The translations under genes were made by a program, and so were the position numbers. This document shows positions 26,168 to 59,858 of a DNA stretch of 64,000 nt, piece by piece (the first letter of the stretch is position 1; each line of letters opens with the position of its first letter). This DNA is from Moringa oleifera (taxonomy: Eukaryota > Streptophyta > Magnoliopsida > Brassicales > Moringaceae): the NCBI GenBank assembly GCA_021397835.1, contig JAJFZO010000056.1:1-64000 (forward strand), written 5' to 3'. Below the pieces are notes generated by a model. It was given only the letters and a program-made list of their open reading frames with translations, was not told the DNA's origin and ran no database searches.

Positions 26168-26174
26168 GTACTGT

Positions 26175-26810
26175 ACGCTTGTTACCTTATTGAGACGTTT
26201 AATGTTAATGAATATCATTATGTACTAGATATAGATGGAGCACCTAGTTACGGAGTGGATTGCCGAAGTAAACCTTCCAGCTGCTCAAGTTGCAATCAGG
26301 ATGGGTGTTCCTCTTTGGCAAATTTTGGGTACAATAGTGAAGTTCATTAAACTTTTTTCCTTAGTCATTTAATGTAGTATATGCTTATATTTAATCAGAA
26401 ATAACATTAACTACTACTAACCCCTTTTGATTTTGACAAGAGAAATAGCTCTAGGTCGAAAGGTCATTGTGTAGTTGTTCATGTGACAAATGAAGATCCA
26501 CATGATGGTTTTAAACCTACCAGTGGGAAAGTACAGGTAAATTGTTAGGTTTCTTGAGCAGTCACCGTTGATGCATTTTATTCCTCATTTTCACGAACTA
26601 GAGTTGAGCTGCATAATTCTATGACTTTTAAAAGAGTTGAATTTCAAAAGCAATCCAAATGTGTGGGCTTGCCTTTTTGTAAAGATAATTTATTTTATTT
26701 TTTTTTCAAAACTATATATTGATAGCATGGTCCATTTTCTACCTAAGTGATTAAATTTCTTACTTGCAGTTTAGAGGAGGCATTCATGAATTCTGAGATT
26801 CTCAATTTAG
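26175..26810 (+). pseudogene. ACC1: ACC1 fragment, leading copy (unit 0, exons E3-E6)
   Basis: ACC1 is the cytosolic multidomain acetyl-CoA carboxylase that makes malonyl-CoA. This copy holds exon E3 at 26235-26330 (EHLVTEWIAEVNLPAAQVA, then MGVPLWQIL), E4 at about 26425-26536 (SKGHCVVVHVTNEDPHDG, FKPTSGKVQ), E5 at about 26634-26684 (ELNFKSNPNVWACLFVK) and E6 at 26770-26809 (RGGIHEF, stop, DSQF). These match the biotin carboxylase domain (EHPVTEWIAEINLPAAQVA, FKPTSGKVQELSFKSKPNVW, GGIHEFSDSQFG). E4 is still open, with acceptor/donor CAG|GTAAAT. It lacks the disabling changes shared by the array units, and E6 has one stop. E1 and E2 are absent because the copy joins 14-3-3 sequence upstream. 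Confidence 0.93.
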
Positions 26811-26875
26811 TAAGTAGAAGTTACTAATCTCATTTGAGTATGTTAAAATTTTGAGTATCAATTTTGGTATAATTA

Positions 26876-27300
26876 TAGCAGCTTAAATGAAGTAGTTGTA
26901 ACAGTAGCAGTTTAAAGGAGAAGCAGTAGCAATATAACACTAACAGTTTAGATAGAAGAATAGTTAAGATGGATTACCAGTAGCACTTTAGCTTGATTAG
27001 TAGTGGTAGTAGCAGTTTTGATGAGTAGCAGTAGTAGTAGCAGCTTTCATGAGTAGTAATTGTAGTTTAGATAGAAAAGCACAAGTAGTAGCAGTTTTGA
27101 TGAGTAGTAGTAGGAGTTTAAACGGGTAGCTGTAGCAGTATAACAGTAGTAGTTCGGATTGACAAGTAGTTACAGTATAGCTGTAGTAACTTAAACGAAG
27201 TGGCACTAGCAGCAACAGTTTAGAAAAGTGGCACTAGTATAGTAATGTAGCAGTAGAAGTTTGGTTGGTGTGGCACTAGGAGTAGACATTTTGATGGAGG
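26876..27300 (+). repeat. GTAGCAG minisatellite, first block
   Basis: Degenerate words of GTAGCAG, AGTAGTAG and GTGGCACTAG alternate with TTTAGATGGA, TTTGATGAG or TTTAAACGG spacers, giving a loose 20-40 bp unit. This first block is shorter (about 420 bp) than the 700-bp blocks that follow. On the minus strand it reads as long L/Y/T-rich frames (codons CTA, CTG, TAC, ACT), which are not genes. Confidence 0.9.
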
Positions 27301-27344
27301 ATAAGTTTAGATTTGTATCATATTTTCTAATTGAAATTGAAATT

Positions 27345-28613
27345 TAGTGGTTCAGTTACTTTGTGATCATCATAAATATGTTGCAGCTTTTCGTTGTAGG
27401 GATTGTAATATTCAGAGGAGATACCATAAGTTTTATTCTTTTTATTGTCATTACATTTAGATTTGGTTATTATGTATAATGTTTTTCTTATTTTGCTATT
27501 TTTTTTATTGAATTCAAATTATATCCTATCTTTCTAACAATAAGAGGGGAAGAATAGCATTTATCCTTTCAGAGAATGTTTTTATTAGATGTTTACTTTT
27601 TAATGTGTGTGGTACATGTTATTAAGGAGGGTCAAATTACATTGGCCCCTTTGAAAACTATCAAGGAACTTCAGCAAGCAATTAAATGGTTCGCTAAATG
27701 GTTAATTACTTTTGAGCTGCAACCGTCGAGTATCTTGAAAGCATGGACACTAATAAATGTCATTTTTTAATACCCAATCTTGTATATCAGGCATACTTTA
27801 CTGGCTGTTCCCTCAGGTATACTTCATAAATTTTATTTGCATGTATTCATTCATGTCATTATCTTTATAGATGATATTTTTGACTTAGGATGCGAAAAAT
27901 CAGGTTGATAAGTTTTGACTTCGTTATTGTTGTGGTTTTGAAATAAGGCGTTTTGTGTTTGAAATGGCTTGCCAGCTACCTCATTAAGATGTTTAGTGTT
28001 AATGAATGTCAGCAAGTATTGCATACAGGTGAAGAACCCAATTACAGAGTGGATTGTTGATGTAAAACTTTATGCTGCGCATTTAGGTCCGATGTTCCTC
28101 TCTCGCAAATTACTGGTACGATAGTATATTTCATTAAATTGTTCCTCGTAGTTATTTAACACAGCATGTCAAATCTATGCCTACATTTAATAAGAAATAA
28201 GGCTATTTTCTAGCATGAAAATCCTCGGCTACCGCTAACCTAATTTGGAAAAAGCAGAGTACGAGGCCAAAAGGTTATTCTTTAGCTATTCACTAGACAG
28301 GAGACAACTGGATGATGATTTGAAACCCACTGATGGGAAACTACAAGTAAATTGTCACCTTTCTTGAGCAATGATAGTTGATATATTTTATTGCCCATTT
28401 TTATGAACTAGAGTTGGGATGCATAATTTTTTGATTTTTCAGGAGACTTAAACCAAATATGTGGGCTTGCTTCTGCGTAAAGATAAGTTATTTTGTTATT
28501 TTTTTTTTCAAAACTATATGTTTGATAGCATGGTTCATTTTCTAACTCAATGATTGCATTTTTTACTTGCAGTTGAGGGGAGGCAATCATGAAATCTGAG
28601 ATTCTCAATTTGG
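27345..28613 (+). pseudogene. ACC1: ACC1 pseudo-unit 1
   Basis: First unit with all six exons: E1 27345-27429, E2 27618-27790, E3 28028-28115, E4 28211-28346, E5 28443-28482, E6 28573-28613. E1 reads as RDCNIQRR, ACC1's RDCSVQRRHQK. E2 begins IKEGQITLAPLKTIKELQQ and, after a frameshift, continues AATVEYLESMDT. E3 has lost codons after HAAH (GCGCATTTAGGTCC). The E2 acceptor ACAG is ACAT here. The E4 donor is AAGTAAATT instead of AGGTAAATT. Confidence 0.9.
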
Positions 28614-29429
28614 TTAGTAGAAGCTACTAATCTCATTTGAGTACATTAATATTTTTTAGGTAATATCATACTGTTTATTTAAAAGGAATAGTGAACATGA
28701 TAATAGCAAAAGTAGCACTATAACAATACCAATAGTAGTATAGCATTATAGCAGTTGCAGTGTAATAGTAATTCAGATAGAGGAGCAGTAGTAGTATTGC
28801 AGTAGCAGTTTAAACGCATTAGTAGTGGGAGTAGTAGTTTTGATGAGTAGCAGTAAGATTGACAATTTAAATCGAGCAGCCGTTGCAGTAGAGCAGTAGG
28901 AGCTCGAATTTATTAGCAATTTTGGTGTAGGTGTAAAAGCTTAAATGGAGTAGTTGTAACACCAAAATTTTAAAAGAAAAGTAATAAAAGTATAATAGTA
29001 GCAATTCGGAGAGAGTAGTAGCTGTGATGGATTAGCAGTTTAACTTGTTTAGCAACGGTAATAGCCGTTTGGATGAGTAGCAGTAATAGTATAAGCTTTC
29101 ATGAGTAGCAATTCAAGTTTAAATAGAAAAAGCACAAGCAGTAGCAGTTTTGATGAGTAATAAAAAGAGTTTAAACGGGTAGCTGTAGCTGTACAACAAT
29201 AGTAGTTCGGATTGAAAAGTAATTGTAGTATAGTTGTAGTAGCTTAAACGAAGTGGCACTAGCAGCAGCAGTTTAGAGTAGTAGCACTAGCATATAGAAG
29301 TGGTAGCTTGGATAGAGTAGCAATGGCAGTGCAGTAGTATAGCGATAGAAGTTTGGTTTGAGTAGGACTAGCAGTAGAGGTTTTGAAGGAGGAGAAGTTT
29401 AGATATGTATTGTATTTTCTAACTACAGT

Positions 29430-30724
29430 TGAAATATAGTGATTCAGCTACTTTGTGATCATTATGAAAATGTTGCAGCTTTTCATTGCAGGGATTGTAA
29501 TATTGAGAGGAGGCACCAGAAGGTTCATTCTTTTTGTTGTCACTAAATTTTGATTTGGTTATTACGTATAATATTTTTCTTGTTTTGCTATTTTTTTTAT
29601 TGAATTCAAGTTATATCCTACCTTCCCAACCATAAGAGGGGAAGAATAGAATTTGTCCTTTCAGAGAATTTTTTTATTAGATCTTTACTTTTTAATGTGT
29701 GTGGTACAGATTATTAAGGAGGGTCAAATTACATTGGTCCCTTTGAAAACTATCAAGGAACTTCAGCAAGCAACTAAAAGGTTCGCTAAATGGTTAATTA
29801 CATTTGAGCTGCAACTGTTGAGTCTCTTGAAAGCATAGACACTAATAAATGCCATTTTTTAATACCCAATCCTGTATCACAGTTATACTTTGCTGGCTGT
29901 TCCCGCAGGTATACTTCATAATTTTTATTTGCATGTATTCATTCATGTCAATATCTTCATAGATGATATTTCTGACTTAGGATGCGAAAAATCAGGTTGA
30001 TAAGTTTTGACCTCGTTTTTGTTGTGGTTTTGGCATAAGGCGTTTTGTATTTGAATGGCTTGCCAGCTACCTTATTAAGATGTTTAGTGTTAATGAATGT
30101 TAGCAAGTATTGCATACAGGTGAAGCACCCAATTATGGAGTGGATTTTTGATGTAAAACTTTATGCTGCACATGTTGCATTCGGGGCCAATGTTCATCTC
30201 TCGCAAATTACTGGTACGATAGTATATTTCATTAAATTGTTCTTCGTAGTTATTTAACACAGTATGTCAAATCAATGCCTATATTTAATAAGAAATAAAG
30301 CTATTTTCTGGCATGAAAATCCTTAGCTACCGTTAACCCCTTTTAATTTGGAAAAAGCAGAGAGTACGAGGCCAAAAGGTTATTTTTTAGCTATTCACTT
30401 GATAATAGAAGACCGGATGATGATTTGAAACCCACTGATGGGAAACTACAGGTAAATTGTCACCTTTCTTGAGCAATGATAGTTGATGTATTTTATTACC
30501 CATTTTTATGAACTAGAGTAGGGCTGCAGAATTCTTGGACTTTCAAGAGAGCTAAACCAAATATGTGGGCTTACTTCTGTGTAAAGATAAGTTATTTTGC
30601 TTTTTTTTTTGTTTTTTTTCAAAACTATATGTTTGATAGCATGGTTCATTTTCTAACTAAATGATTGAATTTCTTACTTGTAGTCGAGGGGAGGCAATCA
30701 TGAAATCCGTGATTCTCAATTTGG
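29430..30724 (+). pseudogene. ACC1: ACC1 pseudo-unit 2
   Basis: E1 29430-29522 (NVAAFHCRDCNIERRHQ), E2 29710-29882, E3 30120-30212 (VKHPIMEWIFDVKLYAAHVA), E4 30310-30451, E5 about 30549-30590, E6 30684-30724. The E2 acceptor GGTACAG and the E6 donor GTAAGT are intact. A T-run with a G inside it (30600-30620) marks the E5-E6 intron. Confidence 0.9.
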
Positions 30725-31544
30725 TAAGTAAAAGCTACTAATCCCATTTGAGTACATTAATATTTTTTAGGTAATAATATACTGTTTATTTGAAAGGAAT
30801 ATCGAACACGATAATAGTAAAAGTAGCACTATAACAATACCAATAGTAGTATAGCATTGCAGCAGTTGCAGTGTAATAGTAATTCAGAGAGAGGAGCAGT
30901 AGTAGTATTGCAATAGCAGTTTAGATGCATTAGTAGTGGGAGTAGCAGTTTTGATGGGTAGCTGTAAGACTGGCAATTTAAATCGAGCAGCCGTTGCAGT
31001 AGAGCAGTAGGAGCTCGAATTGATTAGCAATTTCGGTGTAGGTGTAAAAGCTTAAATGGAGTAGTTATAACACCAGAAGTTTAAAAGAAAAGTAATAAAA
31101 GTATAATAGTAGCAATTCGGAGAGAGTAGTAGCTGTGACGGATTAGCAATAGCAGTTTAACTTGATTAGCAACGATAATAGCAGTTTGGATGAGTAGCAG
31201 TAATAGTAGAAGCTTTCATGAGTAGCAATTCAAGTTTAGATAGAAAAACACAAGCAGTAGCAGTTTTGATGAGTAATAAAAGGAGTTTAAACGGGTAGCT
31301 GTAGCTGTATAACAATAGCAATTCGGATTGAGAAGTAATTGCAGTATGGTTGTAGTAGCTTAAACGAAGTGGCACTAGCAGTAAATGTTTAGATCAGTAA
31401 CACTAGCATATAGCAGTGGTAGCTTGGATAGAGTAGCAATGACAGTGCAGTAGTATAACAGTAGAAGTTTGGTTTGAGTGGGACTAGCAGCAGAGGTTTT
31501 GACGAAGGAGAAGTTTAGATATGTATCGTATTTTCTAACTAGAG

Positions 31545-32838
31545 TTGAAATATAGTGATTCAGCTACTTTGTGATCATTATGAAAATGTTGCAGCTTTTC
31601 ATTGCAGGGATTGTAACATTGAGAGGAGGCACCAGAAGGTTCATTCTTTTTGTTGTCACTGAATTTTAATTTAGTTATGACGTATAATATTTTTCTTGTT
31701 TTGCTATTTTTTTTTTATTGAATTCAAGTTATATCCTACCTTCCCAACCATAAGAGAGGAAGAATAGCATTTATCCTTTCAGAGAATGTTTTTATTAGAT
31801 CTTTACTTTTAATGTGTGTGGTACATGTTATTAAGGAGGGTCAAATTACATTGGCCCCTTTGAAAACTATCAAGGAACTTCAGCAAGCAATTAAATGGTT
31901 CGCTAAATGGTTAATTACATTTGAGCTGCAACTGTCGAGTATCTTGAAAGCATGGACACTAATAAATGTCATTTTTTAATACCCAATCTTGTATATCAGG
32001 TATATTTTGCTGGCTATTCCCTCAGGTATACTTCATAAATTTTATTTGCATGTATTCATTCATGTTAATATCTTTATAGATGATATTTTTGACTTAGGAT
32101 GCAAAAAATCTGTTGATAAGTTTTGACTTCGTTATTGTTGTGGTTTTGAAATAAGGCGTTTTGTGTTTGAAATGGCTTGCCAGCTACCTCATTAAGATGT
32201 TTAGTGCTAATGAATGTCAGCAAGTATTGCATACAGGCGAAGAACCCAATTACAGAGTGGATTGTTGATGTAAAACTTTATGCTGCACATGTTGCATTTA
32301 GGTCCAATGTTCCTGTCTCGCAAATTACTAGTACGATAGTATATTTCATTAAATTGTTCTTCGTAGTTATTTAACGTAGCTTGTCAAATCTATGCCTACA
32401 TTTAATAGGAAATAAGGCTATTTTCTGGCATGAAAATCCTCAGCTACCGCTAACCCCTTTTAATTTGAAAAAAGCTGAGAGTACGAGGCCAAAAGGTTAT
32501 TCTTTAGCTATTCACTAGACAGGAGACAATCGGATGATGATTTGAAACCCACTGATGGGAAACTACAAGTAAATTGTCACCTTTCTTGAGCAATGATAGT
32601 TGATGTATTTTATTGCCTAATTTTATGAACTAAAGTTAGGCTGCATAATTTTTTGATTTTCAGGAGAGCCGAACCAAATATGTGGGCTTGCTTCTGCGTA
32701 AAGATAAGTTATTTTGTTATTTTGTTTTTTTCTTCAAAACTATATGTTTGATAGCATGGTTCATTTTCTAACTAAATGATTGCATTTTTTACTTGCAGTT
32801 CAGGGGAGGCAATCATGAAATCTGAGATTCTCAATTTG
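31545..32838 (+). pseudogene. ACC1: ACC1 pseudo-unit 3
   Basis: E1 31545-31638, E2 31828-32000, E3 32237-32329, E4 32425-32569, E6 32799-32838. It shares with unit 1 the E2 acceptor change to ACATG, GAAGAACCC in E3 and CTACAAGTAAATT at the E4 donor. Units 1 and 3 are therefore closer to each other than either is to unit 2. Confidence 0.9.
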
Positions 32839-33654
32839 GTAAGTAGAAGCTACTAATCTCATTTAAGTACATTAATATTTTTTAGGCAATAACATACTGT
32901 TTATTTAAAAGGAATAGTGAACACAATAATAGCAAAAGTGGCACTATAACAATACCAATAGTAGTATAGCATTGTAGCAGTTGCAGTGTAATAGTAATTC
33001 AGATAGAGGAGCAGTAGTAGTATCGCAGTAGCAGTTTAAAAACATTAGTAGCGGGAGTAGTAGTTTTGATGAGTAGCAGTAAGATTGACAATTTAAAACG
33101 AGCAGCCGTTGCAGTAGAGCAGTAGGAGCTCGAATTTATTAGCAATTTTGGTGTAGGGGTAAAAGCTTAAATGGAGTAGTTGTAACACCAAAATTTTAAA
33201 AGAAAAGTAATAAAAGTATAACAGTAGCAATTCGGAGAGAGTAGTAGCTGTGATGGATTAGCAGTTTAACTTGCTTAGCAACGATAATAGCCGTTTGGAT
33301 GAGTAGCAGTAATAGTATAAGCTTTCACGAGTAGCAACTCAAGTTTAAATAGAAAAGCACAAGCAGTAGCAGTTTTGATGAGTAATAAAAAGAGTTTAAA
33401 CGGGTAGCTGTAACTGTACAACAATAGTAGTTCAGATTGAGAAGTAATTGCAGTATAGTTGTAGTAGCTTAAACGAAGTGGCACTAGCAGCAGCAGTTTA
33501 GAGGAGTAGCACTAGCACATAGCAGTGGTAGCTTGGATAGAGTAGCAATGGCAGTGCAGTAGTATAGCGGTAGAAGTCTGGTTTGAGTAGGACTAGCAGC
33601 AGAGGGTTTGACGGAGGAGAAGTTTAGATATGTATCGTATTTTCTAACTACAGT

Positions 33655-34949
33655 TGAAATATAGTGATTCGGCTACTTTATGATCATTATGAAAATGTTG
33701 CAGCTTTTCATTGCAGGGATTGTAATATTGAGAGGAGGCATCAGAAGGTTCATTCTTTTTGTTGTCACTGAATTTTGATTTGGTTATTACGTATAATATT
33801 TTTCTTGTTTTGCTATTTTTTTTTATTGAATTCAAGTTATATCCTACCTTCCCAACCATAAGAGGGGAAGAATAGCATTTGTCCTTTCAGAGAATGTTTT
33901 TATTAGATGTTTACTTTTTAATGTGTGTGGTACAGATTATTAAGGAGGGTCAAATTACATTGGCCCCTTTGAAAACTATCAAGGAACTTCAGCAAGCAAC
34001 TAAAAGATTTGCTAAATGGTTAATTACTTTTGAGCTGCAACTGTTGAGTATCTTGAAAGCATAGACACTAATAAATGCCATTTTTTTAATACAAAATCTT
34101 GTATCGCATGTATACTTTGCTGGCGGTTCCCTTAGGTTTACTTCATAATTTTTATTTACATGTATTCATTCATGTCAATATCTTTATAGATGATATTTCT
34201 GACTTGGGATGCGAAAAATCAGGTTGATAAGTTTTGACCTCGTTTTTGTTTTGGTTTTGGCATAAGGCGTTTTGTATTTTAAATGGCTTGCCAGCTACCT
34301 TATTAAGATGTTTAGTGTTAAAGAATGTCAGCAAGTATTGCAAACAGGTGAAGCACCCAATTATGGAGTGGATTGTTGATGTAAAACTTTATGCTGCACG
34401 TGTTGCATTCGGGGCTGATGTTCCTCTCTCGCAAATTACTGGTACGATAGTATATTTCACTAAATTGTTCTTCATAGTTATTTAACGCAGTATGTCAAAT
34501 CTATGCCTATATTTAACAAGAAATGAGGCTATTTTCTGGCATGAAAATCCTTAGCTACCGTCAACCCCTTTTAATTTGGAAAAAGTAGAGAGTACGAGGC
34601 CAAAAGATTATTCTTTAGCTATTCACTAGACAAGAGAAGATCGGATGATGATTTGAAACCCACTGATGGGAAACTACAGGTAAATTGTCATCTTTCTTGA
34701 GCAATCATAGTTGATGTATTTTATTGCCCATTTTTATGAACTAGAGTTGGGCTGCATAATTCTTTGACTTTCAGGAGAGCCGAACCAAATATATGGGCTC
34801 ACTTCTGTGTAAAGATAAGCTATTTTGTTATTTTGTTTTTTTTTCAAAACTATACGTTTGATAGCATGGTTCATTTTCTAACTAAATGATTGAATTTTTT
34901 ACTTGCAGTCCAGGGGAGGCAATCATGAAATATGAGATTCTCAATTTTG
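33655..34949 (+). pseudogene. ACC1: ACC1 pseudo-unit 4
   Basis: E1 33655-33747 (GATTCGGCTACTTTATGATC variant), E2 33937-34110, E3 34348-34442, E4 34540-34679, E6 34909-34949. The preceding minisatellite tail and E1 belong to a tract almost identical to that at unit 7. The E6 donor context is TTTTGTAAGT. Confidence 0.9.
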
Positions 34950-35761
34950 TAAGTAGAAGCTACTAATCTACTTTGAGTACGATAATATTTTTTAGGTAAT
35001 AGCATACTGTTTATTTAAAAGGAATAGTGACCACGATAATAGTAAAAGTAGCATTATAACAATACCAATAGCAGTACAGCATTGTAGCAGTTGCAGTGTA
35101 ATAGTAATTCAAAGAGAGCAACAGTAGTAGTATAGCAGTAGCAGTTTAGATGCATTAGTAGTGGGAGTTGCAGTTTTGATGAGTAGCAGTAAGATTGGCA
35201 ATTTAAATCGATCAACCGTTGCAGTAAAGTAGTAGGAGCTCGAATTGATTAACAATTTCGATGTAGGTGTAAAAGCTTAATTGAAGTAGTTATAACACCA
35301 AAAGTGTAAAAGAAAAGTAATAAAAGTATAACAGTAGCAATTCAGAGAGAGTTGTAGCTGTGATGGATTAGCAGTTTAACTTGATTAGCAACGGTAATAA
35401 TAGTTTGGATGAGTAGCAGTAGTAGTAGAAGCTTTCATGAGTAGCAATTCAAGTTTAGATAGAAAAGCACAAGCAGTAGCAGTTTTGATTAGTAATAAAA
35501 GGAGTTTAAACGAGTAGCTGTAACTGTATAACAATAGCAGTTCGGATTGAGAAGTAATTGTAGTATAGCTATAGTAGCTTAAACGAAGTGGCACTAGCAC
35601 CAGCAGTTTAGAGGAGTGGCACTAGCATATAGTAGTTGTAGCTTGGATTATGTAGCAATGGCAGTGCAGTAGCATAGCGGTAGAAGTGTGGTTTGAGTAG
35701 GACTAGAACCAGAGGGTTTGTCGGAGGAGAAGTTTAGATATGTATCGTATTTTCTAACTAC

Positions 35762-37056
35762 AGTTGAAATATAGTGATTCAGCTACTTTATGATCATTAT
35801 GAAAATTTTGCAGCTTTTCATTGCAGGGATTGTAATATTGAGAGGAGGCACTAGAAGGTTCATTCTTTTTGTTGTCACTAAATTTTGATTTGGTTATTAC
35901 GTATAATATTTTTCTTGTTTTACTATTTTTTTAATTGAATTCAAGTTATATCCTACCTTCCCAACCATAAGAGGGGAAGAATAGCATTTATCCTTTCAGA
36001 GAATGTTTTTATTAGATCTTTACTTTTTAATGTGTGTGGTACAGATTATTAAGGAGGGTCAAATTACATTGGTCCCTTTGAAAACTAACAGGAAACTTCA
36101 GCAAATAACAAAAAGGTTCGCTAAATGGTTAATTACTTTTGAGCTGCACCTATTGAGTATCTTGAAAGCATAAACACTAATAAATGACATTTTTTAATAC
36201 CAAATCTTGTATCGCATGTATACATTGCTGGCTGTTCCCTCATGTATACTTCATAATTTTTATTTGCATGTATTCATTCATGTTAATTTCTTTATAGATG
36301 ATATTTCTGACATAGGATGCGAAAAATCAGATTGATAAGTTTTGACCTCGTTTTTGTTGTGGTTTTGGCATACGGCGTTTTGTATTTGAAATAGCTTGCC
36401 AGCTGCCTTATTAAAATGTTTAGTGTTAATGAATGTCAGCAAGTATTGCATACAGGTGAAGCACCAAGTTACGGAGTGGATTGTTGGTGTAAAACTTTAT
36501 GCTGCACATGTTGCATTCGGGGCCGATGTTCATATCTCGTAAATTACTCGTACGATAGCATATTTTCTTAAATTGTTCTCCGTAGTTATTTAACGCAGTA
36601 TGTCAAATCTATGCCTATATTTAATAAGAAATAAGGCTATTTTCTGGCATGAAAATCCTCAGCTATCGCTAACCCCTTTTAATTTTGAAACACCAGATAG
36701 TACAAGGCTAAAAGGTTATTCTTTAGTTATTCACTAGACAGGAGAAGACTGGATGATGATTTGAAACCCACTGATGGGAAGCTACGGGTAAATTGTCACC
36801 TTTCTTGAGCAATCATAGTTGATGTATTTTATTGCCTATTTTTAAGAACTACAGTTGGGCTGCATAATTCTTTGACTTTCAGGAGAGCTGAACCAAATAT
36901 GTGGGCTTACTTCTATGTGAAGATAAGTTATTTCGTTATTTTGTTTTTTTTTCAAAACTATATGTTTGACAGCATGGTTCGTTTTCTAACTAAATGATTG
37001 AATTTCTTACATGCAGTCCATGGGAGGCAACCATGAAATTTGGGATTCTCAATTTT
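35762..37056 (+). pseudogene. ACC1: ACC1 pseudo-unit 5
   Basis: E1 35762-35853, E2 36045-36210 (with altered TAACAGGAAACTTCAGCAAATAA), E3 36457-36548 (HAPSYGV-type text; GTGGATTGTTGGTG), E4 36650-36787, E6 37019-37056. The E4 donor region reads CTACGGGTAAATT. Confidence 0.88.
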
Positions 37057-37869
37057 GTAAGTAGAAGCTACTAATCTCATTTGAGTACATTAATATTTTT
37101 TAGGTAATAGCATACTATTTTTTTAAAAGGAATAGTGGCCATGATAATAGTAAAAGTAGCACTACAACAATACCAATAGCAGTATAGCATTGTAGTAGTT
37201 GCAGGGTAATAGTGATTCAAAGAGAGGAGCAGTAGTAGTATAGCAGTAGCAGTTTAGATGCATTAGTAGTGGGAGTAGCAGTTTTGATGAGTAGAAGTAA
37301 GACTGGCAATTTAAATCGAGCAGCCGTTGCAGTAAAGCAGTAGAAGCTCGAATTGATTAGCAATTTCGATGTAGGTGTAAAAGCTTAAACGAAGTAGTTA
37401 TAACACCAAAAGTGTAAAAGAAAAGTAATAAAAGTATAACAGTAGCAATTCAGAGAGAGTAGTAGCTGTGATGGATTAGAAGTTTAACTTGATTAGCAAC
37501 GGTAATAATAGTTTGGATGAGTAGCAGTAGTAGTAGAAGCTTTCATGAGTAGCAATTCAAGTTTAGATAGAAAAGCACAAGCAGTAGCAGTTTTGATAAG
37601 TAATAAAAAGAGTTTAAATGGGTAGCTGTAGCTTTATAACAATAGCAGTTCGGATTGAGAAGTAATTGCAGTATAGCTCCAGTAGCTTAAACGAAGTGGC
37701 ACTAGCACTAGCAGTTTAGAGGAGTGGCACTAGCATATAGCAGTGGTAGCTAGGATAGTGTAGCAATGGTAGTGCAGTAGCATAGCGGTCGAAGTTTGGT
37801 TGGAGTAGGACTAGCAGCAGAGGTTTTGACGGAGGAGAAGTTTAGATATGTATCGTATTTTCTAACTAT

Positions 37870-47679: not shown

Positions 47680-48951
47680 AGTTGAAATGTAGTGGTTCAG
47701 CTACTTTGTGACCATTATGAAAATGTTGCAGCTTTTCATTGCAGGGACTGTAATATCGAGAAGAGGCATCAGAACGTTCATTCTTTTTGTTGTCACTGAA
47801 TTTTGATTTGGTTACTATGTATAATATTTTTCTTATTTTGCTATTTTTTATTGAATTCAAGTTATATCCTGCCTTCCCAACCATAAAATGGGAAGAATAG
47901 CATTTATCCTTTTGGAGAATATTTTTATGAGATCTTTCCTTTTTAATGTGTATGGTACAGATTATTAAGGAAGGTCAAATTACATTGGCTCCTTTGAAAA
48001 CTATCAAGGAACTTTAGGAAGTAACTACAAGGTTCGCTAAATGGTTAATTATTTTTGAGCTGCAACTGTTGAGTATCTTAAAAGCATGGACACCAATAAA
48101 TATTCTTTTATGGTACCCAATCTTGTATCGCAGGTATGCTTTGATGGCTCTTCGCTCAGGTATACTTTATAATTTTTGCTTGCGTGTACTCGTTCATGTC
48201 GATATCTTTGTAGATGATATTTCTAACTTAGGATACGAGCAATTAGGTTGATGATAAGTTTTGACCTCGTTTTTGTTGTGGTTTTGGCACATGTCATTTT
48301 CAATTTGAAATGGCTTGCCAGCTATCTTGTTAAGATGTTTAATGTTAATGAATGTCAGCAAGTATTGCATATAAGTGGAGCACCCAATTATAAAGTAGAT
48401 TGTTAATGTAAAACTTTTTGCTGCGCATGTTGCATTTTAGGTCGATGTTTCTCTCTCGTAAATTACTGGTACGATTGTATAGTTTGTTAAATTGTTTTTC
48501 GTACTTATATAATGCTGTATCTTATAATCTATGCTGACATTTAATAAGAAATAAGGCTATTTTCTAGCATAAAAATCCTCAGCGACCGTTAACCCCTTTT
48601 AATTTTGAAAAAGCAAAGAGTACGAGGCCAAAGGCTATTCTTTAGCTATTCACTAGACAGGAGTAGACCTAGATAATGATTTGAAACCCATTGATGGGAA
48701 ACTACAGGTAAATTATTAGCTTTCTTGAGCAATATTTTTATGAACTAGAGTTGAGCTGCATAATTCTTTGACTTTTAGGAGAGCTGAACTAAATATGTGT
48801 GCTTACTTCTGTGTAAAGATAAGTTATTTTGTTTTTTCTTTTTTTTCTAAACTACGTTTTTGATAACATGGTTCATTTTCTAACTAAATGATTGAATTTT
48901 TTATTTGCAGTTCAGAGGGAGGCAATCATGAAATCTGGGATTCTCAAATTG
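47680..48951 (+). pseudogene. ACC1: ACC1 pseudo-unit 11
   Basis: E1 47680-47776, E2 47960-48132, E3 48374-48466 (VEHPIIK-like; GTGGAGCACCC restores the E codon), E4 48570-48706, E6 48910-48951. The E6 donor GTAAGT is ATAAAT here, and E6 has an extra G (CAGAGGGAGG). Confidence 0.88.
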
Positions 48952-49769
48952 ATAAATAGAAGTTACTAATCTCATTTGAGTACGTTAATATTTTTTAGGT
49001 AATTACTTGCTGTCTATTTAAAAGTAATAGTGAACACGATAATAGTAAGCACTATAACAACATCGATAGCAGTATAGCATTGTAGCGGTTGTAGTGCAAT
49101 AGTAATTTAGAGAAAGCAGCAATAGCAGTAGCAGTATAGCAGTAGTAGTTTAGATGCATTAGTAGTGCGAGTAGCTGTTTTGATTAGCAGCAGTAACACT
49201 GGCAATTTAAATCGAGCAGCTATTGCAGTAGAGCAGTAGGAGCATGAATTAATTAGCAATTTCGGTATAGCTGTAGCAGCCTAAATGGAGTAGTTGTAAC
49301 ACCGGCAGTTTAAAAGAAAAGCAATAAGAGTATAATAATAGCAGTTTGGAGAGAGTAGCAGTTATGATGGCTTACAGTTGAAATTTAGCTTGATTAGCAG
49401 TGGTAGTAGCAATTTTGATGAATAATAGTAGTAGTAGCAGCTTTCATGAGTAGCAATTCCAGTTTAGATAGAAAAGCACAAGCAATAGCAGTTTTGATGA
49501 TACTAAAATGAGTTTAAATGGGTAGCTGTAGCTATATAACAATAGCAGTTCGGATTAAGAAGTAATTGCAGTATAGCTGTAGTAGATTAAACGGAGTGGC
49601 ACTAACACTAGCAGTTTAGAGGAGTAGCACTGATATATAGCCGTGATAGCCTGGATAGAGTAGCACTAGCAGTACAGTAGTATAGCGGTAGAAGTTTAGT
49701 TTGAGTAGGACTAGCAGTAGAAGTTTTGATGGAGGAGAAGTTTAGATATGTATGGTATTTTCTAACTAG

Positions 49770-51040
49770 AGTTGAAATGTAGTGGTTTAGCTACTTTGTG
49801 ATCATTATGAAAATGTTGCAGCTTTTCATTACACGGACTGTAATATCGAGAAGAGGCATCAGAATGTTCATTCCCAACCATGTATAATATTTTTCTTATT
49901 TTGCTATTTTTTTTGTTGAATTTAAGTTATATCTTGCCTTCCCAACCATAAGATGAGAAGGAATAACATTTATCCTTTTAGAGAATATTTTTATGAGATC
50001 TTTCCTTTTTAATGTGTATGGTATAGATTATTAAGGAGGGTCAAATTACATTGGTCCTTTGAAAACTATCAAATTACTTTAACAAGCAACTACAAGGTTC
50101 GCCAAATGGTTAATTATTTTTGAGCTGCAACTGTTGAGTATCTTAAAAGCATGGACACCAACAAACATTATTTTCTAGTACCCAATCTTATATCGCAGGT
50201 ATACTTTGCTAGCTGTTCCCCCAAGTATACTTTATAATTTTTATTCGCGTGTATTCATTCATGTCGATATCTTTGTAAATGATATTTCTAACTTGGGATT
50301 CGAACATTCAGGTTGATCATAAGTTTTGACCTCATTTTTGTTGTGGTTTTGGCATAAGTCATTTTGTATTTGAAATGGCTTGCCAACTATCTTGTTAAGA
50401 TGTTTAGCGTTAATGAATGTCAGTAAGTATTGCACACAGGTGGAGCACCCAATTATAGAGTGGATTGTTGATGAAAAACTTTTTGCTGCGCATGTTGCAT
50501 TCTGGGCCGGTGTTCCTCTCTCGCAAATTACTGGTACGATAGTGTATTCATTAAATTGTTCTACGTAATTATATAATGCTGTATCTCATAATCTATGCCT
50601 ACATTTAATAAGAAATAAGGCTATTTTCTGGCATGAAAATCCTCAGCTACTGCTAACCCCTTTTAATTTTGAAAAAGCAAAGAGTACGAGGCCAAAAGGT
50701 TATTCTTTAGCTGTTCACGGGATAGGAGAAGGCCTGGAGAATGATTTGAAACCTACTGATGGGAAACTACAGGTAAATTACCGGCTTTCTTGAGCAATCA
50801 TGGTTAACACATTTTATTGCACATTTTTATGAATTAGAGTTGAGCTACATAATTGTTTGACTTTTAGGAGAGCTGAACCAAATATATGGGCTTACTTCTA
50901 TGTAAAGATAAGTTATTTTGTTTTTTCCTTTTCTTCAAAACTATGTGTTTGATAGCTTGGTTCATTTTCTAACCAAATAATTGAATTTCTTACTTGCAGT
51001 CCAAGGGAGGCAATCGTGAAATCTAGGATTCTCAATTTGG
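49770..51040 (+). pseudogene. ACC1: ACC1 pseudo-unit 12
   Basis: E1 49770-49863, E2 50027-50198, E3 50440-50535 (VEHPIIEWIVDEKLFAAHVA), E4 50635-50771, E5 near 50870, E6 51000-51040. The E1-E2 intron has lost the text between GTTCATTC and CCATGTATAATATT. The E6 donor is GCAAGT. Confidence 0.88.
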
Positions 51041-51839
51041 CAAGTAGAAGCTACTAATCTCATTTGAGTATGTTAATATTTTTTAGGTAATAACCTGCTC
51101 TCTATTTAAAAGGAATAGTAAACACGATAATAGTAAAAGTAGCACTATAACAACATCGATAGCAGTATAGCATTGTAGCAGTTGCAGTGTAATAGTAATT
51201 CAGAGAGAGGAACAGCAGTAGTATAGCAGTAGCAGTTTAGATGCATTAGTAGTGGGAGTAGCGGTTTTGATAAGTAGTAGTAAGACTGGCAATTTAAATC
51301 GAGCAGCCGTTGCAGTAGAGCAGTAGGAGCTCGTATTGATTAGCAATTCTGGTATAAGCGTAGCAGCTTAAATGGAGTAGTTGTAACACTAGTAGTTTAA
51401 AAGAAAAGCAATAAGAGTGTAGCAATAGCAGTTCAGAGAGAGTAGCAACTATGATGTATTAGCAGTAGCCGTTTAGCTTGATCAGTGGTAGTAGCAGTAG
51501 TAGTAGCAGCTTTCATGAGTAGCAATTCTAGTTTAGATAGAAAAGCACAAGCAGTAGCAGTTTTGATGGATAATAGAAGGAGTTTAAACGGGTTGCTATA
51601 GCTGTATAACAATAGTAGTTCGGATTGAGAAGTAATTGCAGTATAGCTGTAGTAGCTTAAACGAAGTGGCACTAGCAGCAGCAATTTAGAGGAGTAGCAT
51701 TGGCATATAGCAGTGGTAGCTTGGATAGAGTAGCAGTAGTAGTGCAGTAGTATAGCGGTAGAAGTTTGGTTGGAGTAGGACTAGCAGCAGAAGTTTTGAC
51801 GGAGGAGAAGTTTAGATGTGTATCGTATTTTCTAACTAG

Positions 51840-52565
51840 ACTTGAAATGTATTGGTTCAACTACTTTATGATCATTATGAAAATGTTGAAGCTTCTCATT
51901 GCAGGGATTGTAATATCGAGAGGAGGCACCTAAAGGTTCATTCTTTTTGTTGTCAATAAATTTAGATTTGGTTATTACGTATAATATTTTTTTATTTTAT
52001 TATTTTTTTATTGAATTCAAGTTATATCCAATAATAAGAGTAGAAGAATAGCATTTATCTTTTTGGAGAATGTTTTTATGAGATCTTTACTTTTTAATGT
52101 GTATAGTACAGATTATTATGGAGGGTCAAATTACATGGGCTCCTTTGAAAACTATCAAGGAACTTCAGCAAGCAACTAAAAGATTCGCCAAATGGTTAAT
52201 TATTTCTGAGCTGTAACTGTTGAGTATCTTAAAAGTATGGACACCAATAATTACTGTTGTTTAGTTCCCAATCTTGTATTAAAGGTATACTTTGCTGGTT
52301 GTGCCCTTTGGTATACTTCATAATTTTTATTTGGGTGTATTCATTCATGTCGATATCTTTGTAGATGATATTTCTAACTTGGGATGTGGACAATCAGATT
52401 GGTAAGTTTTGACCTCGTTTTTGTTGTGGTTTTGGCACCAGTTACCTTGTTAAGATGTTTAGTGTCAATGAATGTCAGCAAGTATTGCATACAGGTGGAG
52501 CACCTTATTACGGAATGGATTGTTGATGTAAAACTTTTGCTGCGCAAGTTACAATCGGGGCCGGT
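51840..52565 (+). pseudogene. ACC1: ACC1 pseudo-unit 13, truncated in E3
   Basis: E1 51840-51935, E2 52112-52285, E3 52496-52565 (VEHLITEWIVDVKLL). At GCCGGTGT (about 52560-52567) it switches to minisatellite text (GTAGCAGCTTAAAAGG). The parents share CGGTGT at the joint. E4-E6 are missing, giving the 1.29-kb spacing to unit 14. Confidence 0.9.
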
Positions 52566-53124
52566 GTAGCAGCTTAAAAGGAGTAGTGGTGACACCATCA
52601 GTTTAAGAGAAAATCCATAAGAGTATAGCAGTAGCAGTTTGGAGAGAGTAGCAGTTATGATGGATTAGCAGTAGCCGTTTACCTTGGTTAACAGTAGTAG
52701 TAGTAGTAGTTTTGATGACTAGCAGTAGTAGTAGTAGTTTGGCTTGATTAGCAGTGGTAGTAGCAATTTTGATGAGTAGCAGTAGTAGCAGCAACTTTCA
52801 CGAGTAGCAATTCATGTTTAGATAGAAAAGCATAAGCAGTAGCAGTTTTGATGAGTAATAGAAGGAGTTTAAACGGGTAGTTGTACTTGTATAAAATTGC
52901 AGTTCGGATTGAGAAGTAATTGCAGTATAGTTGTAGTAGCTTAAACGGAGTGGCACTAACAGTAGCAGTTTAGAAAAATAGCACTGGCATATAGCAGTGG
53001 TAGCCTGGATAAAGCAGCAACAGCAGTGTAGTAGTATAGCGGTAGAATTTTGGTTGGAGTAGGACTAGTAGTAAAAGTTTTGATGGAGGAGAAGTTTAGA
53101 TATGTATCATATTTTCTAACTAGA

Positions 53125-54419
53125 GTTGAAATGTAGTGGTTCAGCTACTTTATGATCATTATGAAAATGTTGCAACTTTTCATTGTAGGGACTGTAATAT
53201 TGAGAGGAGGCACAAGAAGGTTCATTCTTTTTGTTGTCACTGAATTTAGATTTGGTTATTAGGTATAATGTTTTTCTTGTTTTGCTATTTTTTTATTGAA
53301 TTCAAGTTATATCTTACCTTCCCAACCATAAGAGGGGAAAAATAGCTTTTATCCTTTTAGAGAATGTTTTTATGAGATCTTTACTTTTTAATGTGTATCG
53401 TGCAGATTATTGAGGAGGGTCAAATTACATTGGCTCCTTTGAAAACTATCAAGGAATTTTAATAATCAACTAAAAGTTCACTAAATGATTAATTATTTTT
53501 GACTTGCAACTGTTGAGTGCCTCGAAAGCATGGACCCCAACAAATACTATTTTTTAGTACCCGATCTTGTATCCCAGGTATACTTTGCTGGCTGTTCCCT
53601 TAGGTATACTTTATAATTTTTATTTGCGTATGTTCATTCATGTCGATATCTTCGTGGATGATATTTCTAAATTGGGATGCGAACAATCAGGTTGACAAGT
53701 TTTGACCTCGTTTTTATTGTGGTTTTCGCATAAGTTGTTTTGTATTTAAAATTGCTTGCTAGCTACCTTATTAAGACTTTTAGTGTTAATGAATGTTAGC
53801 AAGTATTGCATATAGGTGGAGCACCTAATTACAGAGTGGATTTTTGATGTAAAACTTTTTGCTGCGCAAGTTGCATTCGGGGCCGATGTTCCTCTCTCGC
53901 AAATTACTGGTATGATAGTATAGTTGGTTAAATTGTTCTCCGTAGTTATTTAATGCAGTATATCATAATCTATGCCAATATTTAATAAGAAATAAGGCTG
54001 CTTTATGGCTTGAAAATCCTCAGCTACCGCTAATCCCTTTTAATTTTGAAAAAGCAGAGAATACGAGGCCAAAAGGTTATTCTTTAGCTGTTCACTAGAC
54101 AAAAAGAAGACCCGGATGATGATTTGAAGCCCACTGATGGGAAACTACTGGTAAATTTTTAGCTTTCTTGAGCAATCATGGTTGACACATTTTATTGCAT
54201 ATTTTTATGAACTAGAGTTGAGCTTCATAATTCTTTGACTTTTAGAAGAGTTGAACCAAATATGTGGGCTTACTTCTGTGTAAAGATAAGGTATTTTGTT
54301 TTTTTTTCTTTTCTTCAAAACTATGTGTTTGATAGCATGGTTCATTTTCTTACTAAATGATTGAATTTCTTTCTTGCAGTCTAGGGAAGACAATCATGAA
54401 ATCTGAGATTCTTAGTTTG
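53125..54419 (+). pseudogene. ACC1: ACC1 pseudo-unit 14
   Basis: E1 53125-53219, E2 53406-53578 (decayed GAATTTTAATAATCAACT), E3 53817-53910, E4 54010-54149 (extra AAAAAG in the DRRRP region), E5 near 54247, E6 54380-54419. The E6 donor GGTAAGT is intact. Confidence 0.88.
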
Positions 54420-55234
54420 GTAAGTAGAAGCTACTAATCTCATTTGATTACCTTAATATATTTTAAGTAATAACATACTATTTACTTAAAAGGAATAATG
54501 AACACGATAATAGTAGAAGTGGCATTATAATAACACTAATAATAGTATAGCATTGTAGCAGTTGCAGTGCAACAGCAATTCAGAGAGAACAACAGTAGTA
54601 GTATAGCAGCAGCAGTTTAGATGCATTAGTAATGGAAGTAACAGTTTTGATGAGTAGCAGTAAGATTGGCAATTTAAAACGAGCAACTGTTGCGGTAGAC
54701 CAGTAGGAGCTCGAATTGATTAGGAATTTCAATATAGGTGTAGCAGCCTAAATGGGGTAGTTGTAACACTAGTAGTTTAAAAGAAAAGCAATAAGAGGAT
54801 AACAGTTTGGAGAGAGAAGCAGTTATGATGGATTAACAATAGTAGTTTAGCTTCATTAGCAGTGGTAGTAGTAGTTTTGATGAGTAGCAGTAGTAGTAGC
54901 AGCTTTCATGAGTGGCACTTCTAGTTTACATAGAAAAGCATAAGTGGTAGTAGTTTTGATGTGTAATAAAAGGAGTTTAAACAGGTAGCTGTAGCTGTAT
55001 AATAATAGCAATTCAGATTAAGAAATAATTGTAGTATAGCTGTAGTAGCTTAAACGGAGTGGCACTAGCAGTAACAGTTTAAAGGAGTAACGCTAGCATA
55101 TAGTAGTGGTAGCCTGGATAGAGTAGCTGTAGCATTGCAGTAGTATAGTGGTAGAAGTTTGGTTGGAGTAGGACTAGTAGTAGAAGTTTTGATGGAGGAG
55201 AAGTTTAGGTATGTATTGTATTTTCTAACTAGAG

Positions 55235-56500
55235 TTGAAATGTAATGGTTAAGCTTCTTTGTGATCATTATGAAAATGTTGTAGCTTTTTATTACAGGGA
55301 TTGTAATATCAAGAGGAGGCACCAGAACGTTCATTCTTTTTGTTGCCATTGAATTTAGATTTGGTTATTACGTATAATGTTTTTCTTATTTTGCAATTTT
55401 TTTATTGAATTCAAGTTATATCCTACCTTCCCAACCATAAGAAGGGAAGAACAGATTTTATCCTTTTGGAGAATGTTTTTATGAGATCTTTACTTTTTAA
55501 TGTGTATGGTCAAATTACATTGGCTCCTTTGAAAACTATCAAGGAACTTCAGCAAGCAACTAAAAGGTTCGCTAAACAGTTAATTATTTTTGGGCTGTAA
55601 CCGTTGAGTATCTTAAAAGCATGGACACCAATAAATACTATTTTCTAGTACCCAATCTTGTATCGCAGGTATACTTTGCTGGCTGTTCCCTTAGGTATAC
55701 TTCATAATTTTTATTTGCATGTATTCATTCATGTCGATATCTTTATAGATGATATTTCTAATTTGGGATGCGGATAATCAAGTTGATAAGTTTTGACCTC
55801 GTTTTTGTTGTGGTTTTGGAACAAGTCATTTTGTATTTGAAATTGCTTGCTAGCTACCTTATTAAGATATTTAGCATTAATGAATGTTAGCAAGTATTGC
55901 ATACAAGTAGAGCACCCAATTACGGAGTGGATGGTTGATGTAAAACTTTCTGCTGTGCAAGTTGCATTTGGGGCTGGTGTTCTTGTCTCGCAAATTGCTG
56001 GTACGATACTATAGGTCGTTAAATTGTTCTCTGTAGTTATTTAATGCAATATCTCATAATCTGTCTATATTTAATAAGAAATAAGACTATTTTCTGGCAT
56101 AAAAATCCTCAGCTTCCGCTAACCCTTTTTAATTTTAAAAAAGCAGAGAGTACGAGGCCAAAAGGTTATTCTTTAGTTATTCACTAAACCGGAGAAGACT
56201 TGGATGACAATTTGAAATCAATTGATGGGAAACTATAGGTAAATTGTCAGCTTTCTTAAGCAATCATGGTTGACGCATTTTACTGTACATTTTTATGAAC
56301 TAAAGTTGAGTTTTATAATTTTTTGACTTTTAGGAGAGCAGAACTAAACATGTAGGCTTACTTCTGTGTAAAGATAAGTTATTTTGATTTTTTTTTTCAA
56401 AACTATGTTTGATGGCACGGTTCATTTTTTAACTAAATGATTGAATTTCTTACTTGCAGTCTAGGGAAGGCAATCATGAAATTTGGGATTCTCAATGTGC
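55235..56500 (+). pseudogene. ACC1: ACC1 pseudo-unit 15
   Basis: E1 55235-55335, E2 55511-55670, E3 55916-56005, E4 56105-56237, E6 56459-56500. The E2 acceptor and first codons (CAGATTATTAAGGAGGGT) are deleted: GTGTATGGT runs straight into CAAATTACATTGG. The E4 donor is CTATAGGTAAATT. Confidence 0.88.
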
Positions 56501-57314
56501 TAAGTAGAAGCTACTAATCTCATTTGAGTACGTTAATATTTTTTAGGTAATAACATATTGTTTATTTAAAAGGAATAGTGAACACGATAATAGTAAAAGT
56601 AACACTATAACAATACCAATAGCAGTATAACATTGTAGCAGTTACAGTGCAATAGCAATTCAGAGAAAGCAGCAGTAGTAGTATAGCAGTAGCAGTTTCG
56701 ATGCATTAGTAGTAGGAGTAGCAGTTTTGATGAGTAGCAGTAAGACTGGCAAATAAAATTGAGCCGTTGTTGTAGTGGAACAGTAGGAGCTTGAATTGAT
56801 CAGCAATTCTAGCATAGGTGTAGCAGCTTATGGAGTAGTTGTAACACTAATAGTTTAAAAGAAAAGCAATAAGAGCATAGCAATAGCACTTTGGAGAGAG
56901 TAACAGCTATGATGGATTAGCAGCAGCAGTTTGGCTTGATTAGTGGTGGTAATAGCTGTTTTGATGAGTAGCAGTAGTAGTAAAAGCTTTCATGAGTAGC
57001 AATTCCAGTTTAGATAGAAAAGCACGAGCAGTAGCAGTATTGATGAGTAATAGAAGGAGTTTAAACGGGTAGCTATAGCTGTATAACAATAGTGCATTGA
57101 GAAGTAATTGCAGTATAGCTGTACTAGCTTAAATGTAGTGGCACTAGTAGCAGTAGCTTAGAGGAGTAGCACTGGCATATAGCAGTGGTAGCCTATATAG
57201 AGCAGCAGTAGCAGTGCAGTAGTATAACGATGAAATTTAGTTGGATTAGGACTAGCAGTAGAAGTTTTGATGAAGGAGAAGTTTAGATATGTATCGTATT
57301 TTCTAACTTAAGTT

Positions 57315-58598
57315 GAAATGTAGTGGTTCAGCTACTTTGTGATCATTATGAAAATGTTGCAGCTTTTCATTGCAAGGATTGTAATATCGAGAGGGGGCAC
57401 CAGAAGGTTCATTTTGTTTATTGTCACTAAATTTAGATTTGGTTATTACGTATAATATTTTTCTTATTTTGCTATTTTTTATTGAATTCAAGTTATATCC
57501 TACCTTCCCAACTATAAGAGGGGAAAAATAGCTTTTACCCTTTTGGAGAATGTTTTTACGAGATCTTTAATTTTTAATGTGTACGGTACAGATTATTAAG
57601 GAGGGTTAAATTACATTTGCTCCTTTGAAAACTATCAAGGAATTTCAGCAAGCAACTAAAAGGTTCGCTAAATGGTTAATTATTTTTGAGCTACAACTGT
57701 TGAGTATCTTGAAAGCGTGGACACTAATAAATACTATTTTCTAGTACCTAATCTTGTATTGCAGGTATACTTTGCTGGCTGTTCCCTTAGGTATACTTCA
57801 TAATTTTTATTTGCGTGTATTCATTCATGTCGATATCTATGTTGATGATACTTCTAACTTGGGATGCAGACAATCATGTTCTTAAGTTTTGACCTCCTTT
57901 TTGTTGTGGTTTTGGCACAAGTCATTTTGTAATTGAAATGGCTTGTCAGCTACCTTATTAAGATGTTTAGTATTAATGAATGTCAGCAAGTATTGCATAT
58001 AGGTGGAGCACCCAATTACGTAGTGGATTGTTGGTGTAAAACTTTCTGCTGTGCAAGTTGCATTCGTGGCTGGTGTTTGCGTCTCGCAAATTGTTGGTAC
58101 GATAGTATAGTTCATTAAATTATTCTTCCTAGTTATTTAATGCAGTATCTCATAATCTATGCCTATATTTAATAAGAAATAAGGCTATTTTCTGGCATGA
58201 AAATCCTCAGCTACCGTTAACCCCTTTCAATTTTAAAAAAGGAGAGAGTACGAGGCCAAAAGGTTATTCTTTAGTTGTTTACTAGACAGAAGAAGACTCG
58301 GATGATGATTTTGAACCCACTAATGGGAAACTACAGGTAAATTGATCGCTTTCTTGAGCAATCATGATTGACGCATTTTATTGCACATTATTATGAACTA
58401 GAGTTGAGCTGCATAATTCTTTGACTTTTAGGAAAGTTGAACGAAACATGTAGGCTTACTTCTGTGTAAAGATAAGTTATTTTGTTTTTTTTTTCAAAAC
58501 TATGTGTTTCATAGCTTGGTTCATTTTCTAACTAAACGATTGAATTTCTTACTTGCAGTCCAGGGGAGGCAATCATGAAATCTGGGATTCTCAATTTG
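57315..58598 (+). pseudogene. ACC1: ACC1 pseudo-unit 16, last forward unit
   Basis: E1 57315-57413, E2 57591-57763, E3 58002-58095 (VEHPIT-like with a Y codon change: GCACCCAATTACGTAGTGG), E4 58198-58336, E5 near 58432, E6 58559-58598. The E6 acceptor CTTACTTGCAG and donor GGTAAGT are intact. Its minisatellite is cut short at about 58975, where the array turns over. Confidence 0.9.
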
Positions 58599-58975
58599 GT
58601 AAGTAAAAGCTATTAATCTCATTGAGTATGTTAGTATTTTTTAAGTAATAACATACTGTTTATTTAAAACGAATAGTGAACACGATAATAGTAAAAGTAA
58701 CACTATAACAACAACAATAGCAATATAGCATGGTAGCAATTGCAGTTCAATAGCAATTCAGAGATAGCAGCAGTAGTAGTATAGTAGTAGTAGTTTAGAT
58801 GCATTAGTAGTGGGAGTAACAGTTTTGATGAGTAGCAGTAAGACTGGCAATTTAAATCAAGTAGCTATTGCGATTGAGTAGTAGGAGCTCGAATTGCTTA
58901 ACAATTTCGGTATAGATGTAATAGCTTAAATGGAGTAGTTGTAACGCCAACAGTTTAAAATAAAAGCAATAAGAT

Positions 58976-59858
58976 GCTACTGCCATACTACTACTGCTAC
59001 TTTATCCAAACTACTATGGCTATATCGCTGCTACTACTCCTTTAAACAACTGTTGCTACTGCTATACCGCTATTGCTACTCCATTAAGCTACGGCTGCTA
59101 CTGTTACTCTATTTAAGCTGCTACTGCTACATTACAACTACTGCTCAATTCGAACTACAACTATTATACTGCTACAGCTACTCCATATAAACTCTTGCTG
59201 CTACTCATCAAAACTGCTACTGCTTATACCTCTCTATTTAAACTACTCCTACTTGTGTTTTTTTATTTAAATTGTTACTATTACTGCTAATCCATCTCAA
59301 CCACTACTGTTGTACTGCAATTGCTACTATATCTAAACTGTTACTATTACTATAATTGCTATAATGCTACACTGCTATTGCCACTGTTATATTGCTACTG
59401 CTACCTTATCAAAACTGCTACAATACTACAACTACTACAATGCTATACTACTATAATGCTATACTGTTATTAGTAGCTTCTACTTACCAAATAGCAAAAT
59501 AAGAAAAAAACATTATACATAACAACCAAATCTAAATTCAGTGGTAACAAACAGAATGAACCTTTTGGTACCTCATCTCAATATTACAATTCCTGCAATG
59601 AAAAGTTGCAACATTTTCATAATGATCACAAAGTAACTGAACCACTACATTTCAACTCTAGTTAGAAAATTTGATACATATCTAAACTTTTTCTCCATCA
59701 AAACTTCTACCGCTATACTACTGCACTGCTACTCTATCCAGGCTACCATTACTATATGCCAGTGTTACTCCTTTAAACTGCTGCTACTAGTGCTACTCTG
59801 TTTAAGCTACTATAGCTATACTGCAATTACTTCTCAATCCAAACTGCTACTACTATAC
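58976..59858 (-). pseudogene. ACC1: Inverted, deleted terminal unit (unit 17)
   Basis: From 58976 the text becomes CTGCTACT-rich, the reverse complement of the preceding minisatellite. Read on the minus strand from 59858, it has minisatellite (59855-59700), E1 (about 59660-59560, with GATCATTATGAAAATGTTG as in forward units), part of the E1-E2 intron (to TTTTGCTATTT), then a direct jump to the end of E6 (TTGGTAAGTAGAAGCTACTA at 59460-59490), then minisatellite to 58976. E2-E5 are deleted. Segment A' starts immediately after. Confidence 0.92.

Follow-up and report, generated by a model that had tools for sequence, protein, structure and literature searches.

Contig C113 of the Moringa oleifera genome assembly (279.5 Mb, 669 contigs) is 111 kb long, and its initial 64 kb, referred to here as the window, contain a tandem array whose repeat unit is built largely from exons and introns of ACC1, the gene for homomeric acetyl-CoA carboxylase (ACC). 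We consider it reasonably probable that this array is a non-coding satellite which arose from a DNA-level copy of part of ACC1, grew by what was likely unequal exchange within a mosaic of gene fragments, and was likely multiplied further by duplication of larger blocks. The coordinates of the features are collected in Table 1.

The array and its origin in ACC1

Self-BLAST of the window revealed head-to-tail repetition across positions 27339-58972. Exactly 16 forward starts of E1, the first of the six ACC1 exons described below, were counted, at 27339, 29431, 31547, 33656, 35766, 37874, 39973, 42087, 44830, 45585, 47684, 49774, 51844, 53128, 55237 and 57315. Complete units are 2.07-2.12 kb long; truncated and fused ones also occur, and their junctions lie close to 42944, 45196 and 52562. 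Array pieces longer than 700 bp were 84-93% identical to the reference unit, far beyond chance. The long head-to-tail arrays of similar monomers expected of a satellite are present. Both the repeat of about 2.1 kb with 16 forward E1-bearing units and the tandem array filling about 33 kb (window 26183-59859), as proposed in a first-pass annotation made from the sequence alone, were confirmed by this analysis.

The genome contains one locus that matches PF08326 (ACC_central), which we take to be a mark of the eukaryotic homomeric ACC. It lies at C3:6656908-6660881 on the minus strand and consists of seven exon pieces (8 candidates scored). Gene coordinates given below refer to the 20-kb ACC1 gene region, C3:6655001-6675000, read as its reverse complement. 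Gene positions 9362-10968 (C3:6664033-6665639), upstream of ACC_central within the gene, align to the repeat unit in two collinear blocks that extend over 1.6 kb, and the exons E1-E6 lie inside positions 9387-10903. The parent exons, delimited by eye from splice sites, yielded a 214-residue stretch whose translation matched CPSase_L_D2 (3.7e-31) and Biotin_carb_C (2.6e-9) in Pfam and eukaryotic ACCs in the PDB, down to 5.5e-78. The unit thus carries biotin carboxylase exons collinear with a eukaryotic homomeric ACC gene, and the assignment of E1-E6 to this part of ACC1 by the first-pass annotation holds. A better match to another protein family, or introns unrelated to those of the species' own gene, would have spoken against that assignment; neither was found in the Pfam and PDB scores of the parent exons or in the intron alignment.

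From the biotin carboxylase region, a full unit holds portions of six exons and of five introns. In the array consensus, with gaps excluded, identity to the parent gene was 0.790 in exons (599 bases) and 0.774 in introns (753 bases). Since the introns align collinearly, capture occurred at the DNA level, as had also been proposed at first. A processed copy derived from mRNA is ruled out by the five retained and alignable introns. In the 41 full-length units of C113, C115 and C482, 33-55 of the 643 exon bases are absent, and on average 57% of the aligned codons of the decayed exons match the parent. Every one of these units contains in-frame stops, at 2-7 per 187-201 aligned codons, which marks these units as non-coding. 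Consequently, a functional tandem family of ACC genes is also ruled out, all 41 units being broken and exons and introns having diverged alike. Identity of the consensus to the parent was highest at second codon positions (0.859, n = 199), compared with 0.762 at first (n = 202) and 0.747 at third positions (n = 198). This retention may come partly from constraint on the parent's own lineage. A dispersed copy, L033, gave 0.787, 0.808 and 0.808 for the three codon positions, respectively, with no excess at the second.

The first-pass annotation had described the whole 2.1-kb unit as an ACC1 exon block. That description stands for the ACC1-derived part and fails for about one third of the unit, a TAG-rich spacer of about 730 bp that separates gene position 10964, where one ACC1-derived part ends, from the start of the next at 9362. 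The consensus spacer contains 56 TAG in 731 bp, whereas 1000 mononucleotide shuffles averaged 18.6 and never exceeded 33. No match to the spacer was found when it was aligned to the 20-kb ACC1 gene region. Allowing up to three mismatches, we counted 349 genome matches to a 32-base pattern from the spacer (190 forward and 159 reverse) and none with a control pattern; a metabolic gene present in one copy has thus contributed exons and introns to a satellite family of that extent. In three fetched contigs the pattern matched 49 times against 53 unit starts, which would put the family at roughly 375 units, or 0.8 Mb, in the assembled genome.

Arrays of the window family change strand within the contig on C159, C205 and C555, so head-to-head arrays exist. 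A regulatory locus, in which inverted arrays give rise to hairpin RNA or small interfering RNA acting on ACC1, would draw on these strand switches and on the inverted remnant that ends the window array. The consensus is, however, only about 79% identical to ACC1 exons, which would be low for small-RNA targeting, and we regard such a function as highly improbable.

A mosaic of gene fragments and its dispersed relatives

At its left edge the array is preceded by a partial ACC1 copy, termed copy F, which is without E1 and E2 and is not a member of the array. Fragments of a 14-3-3 gene, an S9 (prolyl oligopeptidase) gene and a CCCH zinc-finger/ankyrin gene lie before it (Table 1). On this sequence evidence, the seed of the array is placed in a mosaic of fragments from at least four genes. 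The donor genes named are the best candidates and are located on three contigs (C3, C32 and C565). The 14-3-3 open reading frame (ORF) in the window matched PF00244 at 1.4e-6, under the curated cut-off, and its candidate donor stretch on C3 is 718 kb from the ACC1 segment. The candidate S9 donor on C32 matched PF00326 at 7.2e-22; an alternative donor, C523:101903-104420, matches the fragment at 80-83%. On C565 the candidate CCCH/ankyrin donor is an intact ORF of 735 residues; in the window, the CCCH/ankyrin fragment is oriented opposite to the S9 fragment. The two top matches of this donor protein were from Gossypium barbadense (72% identity over 65% of the query) and Theobroma cacao (77% over the entire query), both members of the Malvales. 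Outside the arrays, identity between donor and copy is similar across the four genes, at roughly 76-85%, which fits assembly of the mosaic in one period.

The CCCH/ankyrin fragment also forms tandem arrays of its own, with a period of about 0.74 kb, at C473:427-436k and 485-492k and at C72:28-37k, so that this mosaic has given rise to two satellites.

Related composites were found elsewhere in the genome. Locus L033 (C563:1002001-1009000) contains all four gene fragments in the same order as the window, L032 (C473:291001-298000) contains three of the four and shares the 14-3-3/ACC junction, and L035 and L036 also contain three of four, in each of these three loci within the stretch fetched. 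These copies are more diverged than the arrays, mostly 73-83% alike. The composite includes a further fragment on the left, for which the best candidate donor is C18:4443798-4446133 (74-76%), and a further fragment on the right, located beyond gene 11345.

The ACC portion of the relatives ranges from one copy to short arrays. In L033 a single ACC copy follows the 14-3-3 fragment and is itself followed by a short TAG-rich stretch. L035 (C25) has about 1.4 copies: a partial copy (10329-10967), a TAG-rich linker of about 90 bp and a unit spanning 9364-10985. L037 (C25) has nine copies with TAG-rich linkers, of which six end near 9979 and one is a long copy (9362-10968), while L038 (C563) has two copies, starting at 9362 and 9366, the last of which extends to 11345 as in L032. 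An outer ACC breakpoint at gene 11344/11345 is common to L032 and L038, and a left breakpoint at gene 9362/9364 is common to L035, L037, L038 and the units of the window family. Judged by the common 9362 breakpoint and the TAG-rich linker, the first tandem duplication would have preceded dispersal, or else pieces would have been swapped between loci. A tree of 23 copies, including 13 array units chosen from 41, placed the window-family arrays in one clade (100/100) on a stem of 0.14, the F copies in a separate clade (100/100), and the other loci with the parent in a third group. Copy F as the direct seed of the array is unsupported, F and the array being in separate clades with F closer to the parent.

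The same features might be explained by a non-autonomous DNA transposon of the Pack-MULE or Helitron type that captured gene fragments and within which a tandem duplication arose. Fragments of several donor genes, introns included, are scattered over several contigs as such an element would leave them, and MULE transposase domains are abundant, with at least 150 matches in the genome (150 of 614 candidates scored). However, the inverted repeats in L033 and L032 are five imperfect pairs of 26-34 nt (74-83%), none of them placed as element termini; homology runs past the left boundary of L033 and L036 at C25:7570932 and C18; and copies recur every tens of kb on several contigs. Helitron_like_N (PF14214) had no match in the genome, although the control was likewise without any match. 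Helitron ends (5′ TC, 3′ CTRR/hairpin) were looked for by eye at one left and one right boundary, two loci each, and were not seen. We consider capture by a transposon possible but rather unlikely.

Repetition of blocks and the proposed growth of the arrays

In C113, the array edge at window 22-26 kb is found again at 86-90 kb, where copy F and a second array follow it, and the same order of edge, copy F and array was found in C115 and C482. Genome-search counts are lower bounds, with 40 candidates scored of 523, 277 (edge search), 403, 552 and 129. Within this limit, window 23000-26180 has at least 21 full copies (96-100% identity when that of the window itself is counted) distributed over 13 contigs, some of which may be alleles, and at least four partial copies (C100:255646, C125:1072437, C221:25109 and C603:75496); the recurrences are 96-98% identical. 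On C100 neighbouring edges lie 49.7, 78.5, 60.1 and 75.8 kb apart, and on C125 the distances are 68.7, 72.1 and 50.7 kb; C607, C113 and C555 have one such interval each, of 50.9, 64.0 and 22.1 kb, respectively. An assembly artefact or a collapsed tandem gene family might be suspected, as several of the contigs involved are short, at 30-111 kb, and the end of C113 lies 119 bases past its second array. Each of the five contigs just named carries at least two edges in cis, though, and units differ from one another by 9-14% on average, and most window units recur in C115, as detailed below. An artefact of this kind is extremely improbable. Clusters of ACC and S9/CCCH fragments also recur tens of kb apart on C517, C37 and C572, and these suggest further macro-repeat families derived from this mosaic.

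We also compared the arrays of different blocks. Between the window and C115, 10 of the 12 full units have a counterpart at 0.96-0.985 identity (units 35766 and 53128 have none), and the edges of the two blocks are 98.7% identical. For the pair of blocks that C113 carries in cis, edge identity is 97.4%. Here the best inter-block match of each window unit (12 of 12) was 0.871-0.939, compared with 0.873-0.951 within one array, and the units that adjoin the edge were 0.908 identical. The pattern of higher-order repeats, in which units matched by position are more alike between blocks, is seen for 10 of 12 units between the first C113 array and C115, which may be an allele, and not between the two C113 arrays. 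A short unit of 0.70-0.76 kb is common to three arrays (both in C113 and that in C115), all those that reach it, which suggests that the array predates the separation of the blocks.

Several of these results weigh against a satellite grown from the mosaic and spread by block duplication. The stem of the array clade is long, and no examined locus is the direct precursor. The units contain ACC 9362-9519, which is absent from L033, so the series of loci consists of relatives rather than a lineage. The C115 block may be an allele of the window array or a recent copy of it. With edges at 97.4% and units at no more than 0.939, the two C113 arrays cannot simply have been copied whole and kept, and later turnover of units is indicated; copying of blocks whole with their arrays is weakened to that extent.

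We nevertheless favour growth of the satellite within the mosaic, and its steps might have been as follows. Fragments from separate loci would have been joined by template switching or end joining, and an early tandem duplication would have supplied the homology for unequal exchange at the 2.1-kb scale. The TAG-rich linker could have lengthened by slippage. Larger exchanges would have duplicated edge and array together, after which units would have kept turning over in each array. No host function would be needed. The arrays may lie in heterochromatin. A more far-reaching proposal is that, on several chromosomes, the mosaic has provided the DNA of which centromeric or pericentromeric chromatin is made, organized in macro-repeats of 30-100 kb with locus-specific monomers. 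We give this proposal a low probability. If it were true, centromere-type DNA would have been seeded by ordinary genes and not by retrotransposons or older satellites.

Table 1. Features of the window (strand "." denotes none assigned)
Feature	Position	Strand	Evidence or remark
Tandem array of 16 E1-bearing units of about 2.1 kb (ACC1 exons/introns and TAG-rich spacer), some truncated or fused	27310..58972	+	self-BLAST
Reference unit for comparisons	29431..31546	+	
ACC1-derived part of reference unit	29431..30784	+	gene 9394-10964; two blocks, 76.6% over 488 and 71.6% over 908 columns
TAG/CAG-rich spacer of reference unit	30785..31517	+	not found in 20-kb ACC1 gene region
Inverted E1-bearing array remnant, closing the array	58973..59859	-	self-BLAST
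Edge copy F, partial ACC1 (gene 10228-10952)	26183..26863	+	76.7% to parent
14-3-3 gene fragment, directly before copy F	25283..26181	+	83.4% to C3:7383357-7384261
S9 (prolyl oligopeptidase) gene fragment	24624..25049	+	C32 gene, 85% over 396 and 89% over 47 columns
CCCH zinc-finger/ankyrin gene fragment	23367..23809	-	C565 gene, 84.5% over 465 columns
3.9-kb flank after array	59855..63779	.	96.8% identical to 1116-5042; follows array in C115 too
Second copy of 3.9-kb flank	1116..5042	.	self-comparison of window

Relation to known repeats and further observations

The birth of a satellite is usually hard to trace, as the seed has decayed. In M. oleifera, likely donors, shared breakpoints, single-copy and partial-dimer relatives, short and long arrays and a repeated edge occur in one genome, and the steps of satellite birth can therefore be compared directly. 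Pericentromeric duplicon mosaics of primates and mammalian macrosatellites are blocks of tens of kb made of fragments from several genes and then duplicated. The blocks described here resemble them in this respect and differ in having a nested internal array of monomers and in belonging to a plant genome.

Several published accounts offer further comparisons. In Lathyrus sativus, satellites expanded from tandem repeats inside long terminal repeat retrotransposons, mainly in pericentromeric regions (PMC7004042). There, as here, a short tandem repeat within a larger dispersed sequence gave long arrays, but our array was seeded by exons and introns of a host gene within a multi-gene mosaic rather than by a retrotransposon. 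Satellites in general also start from ribosomal DNA (rDNA) spacers and transposons, and in higher-order repeats adjacent monomers are amplified jointly as a larger unit (PMC5615363). Joint amplification is a likeness; in the present case, however, the larger unit recurs every 22-78 kb and includes non-array DNA, and monomers of blocks in cis are no more alike between than within blocks. Pack-type transposons and Helitrons are known to capture gene fragments (PMC13317346) and share with our family amplified, usually non-functional pieces of host genes, whereas the copies described here have no termini that we could find and are clustered and in tandem at several loci, not single insertions. The PcP190 satellite of frogs, similar to 5S rDNA (PMC11675491), is likewise seeded by a gene, but by an RNA gene rather than a single-copy protein gene with introns. 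In a narrow look at the accessible parts of the open-access literature, we found no plant satellite seeded by an intron-bearing protein gene, nor any report that combines such a seed with a multi-gene mosaic and amplification at two levels.

For a reading of the 3.9-kb flank pair as long terminal repeats, three ORFs from it were compared with Pfam, and none matched a family at an E-value under 0.06. Pieces at window 5048-6219 and L036:6205-7800 carry what we presume to be Ty1/copia gag-pol motifs; they lie in the block and interrupt the composite at C25, and their three short ORFs had no Pfam match. Window 21670-22686 contains a direct duplication of about 500 bp (92%), of which the sister block has at least three copies (C113:84.6-86.7k). 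Window 16000-21500 is very T-rich, with a GC content of 13-22%, an AT skew of about -0.27 to -0.42 and degenerate ATTTT-like repeats. Similar T-rich DNA was found beside the composite at C563:1009-1012k, elsewhere in C113 and in C482.

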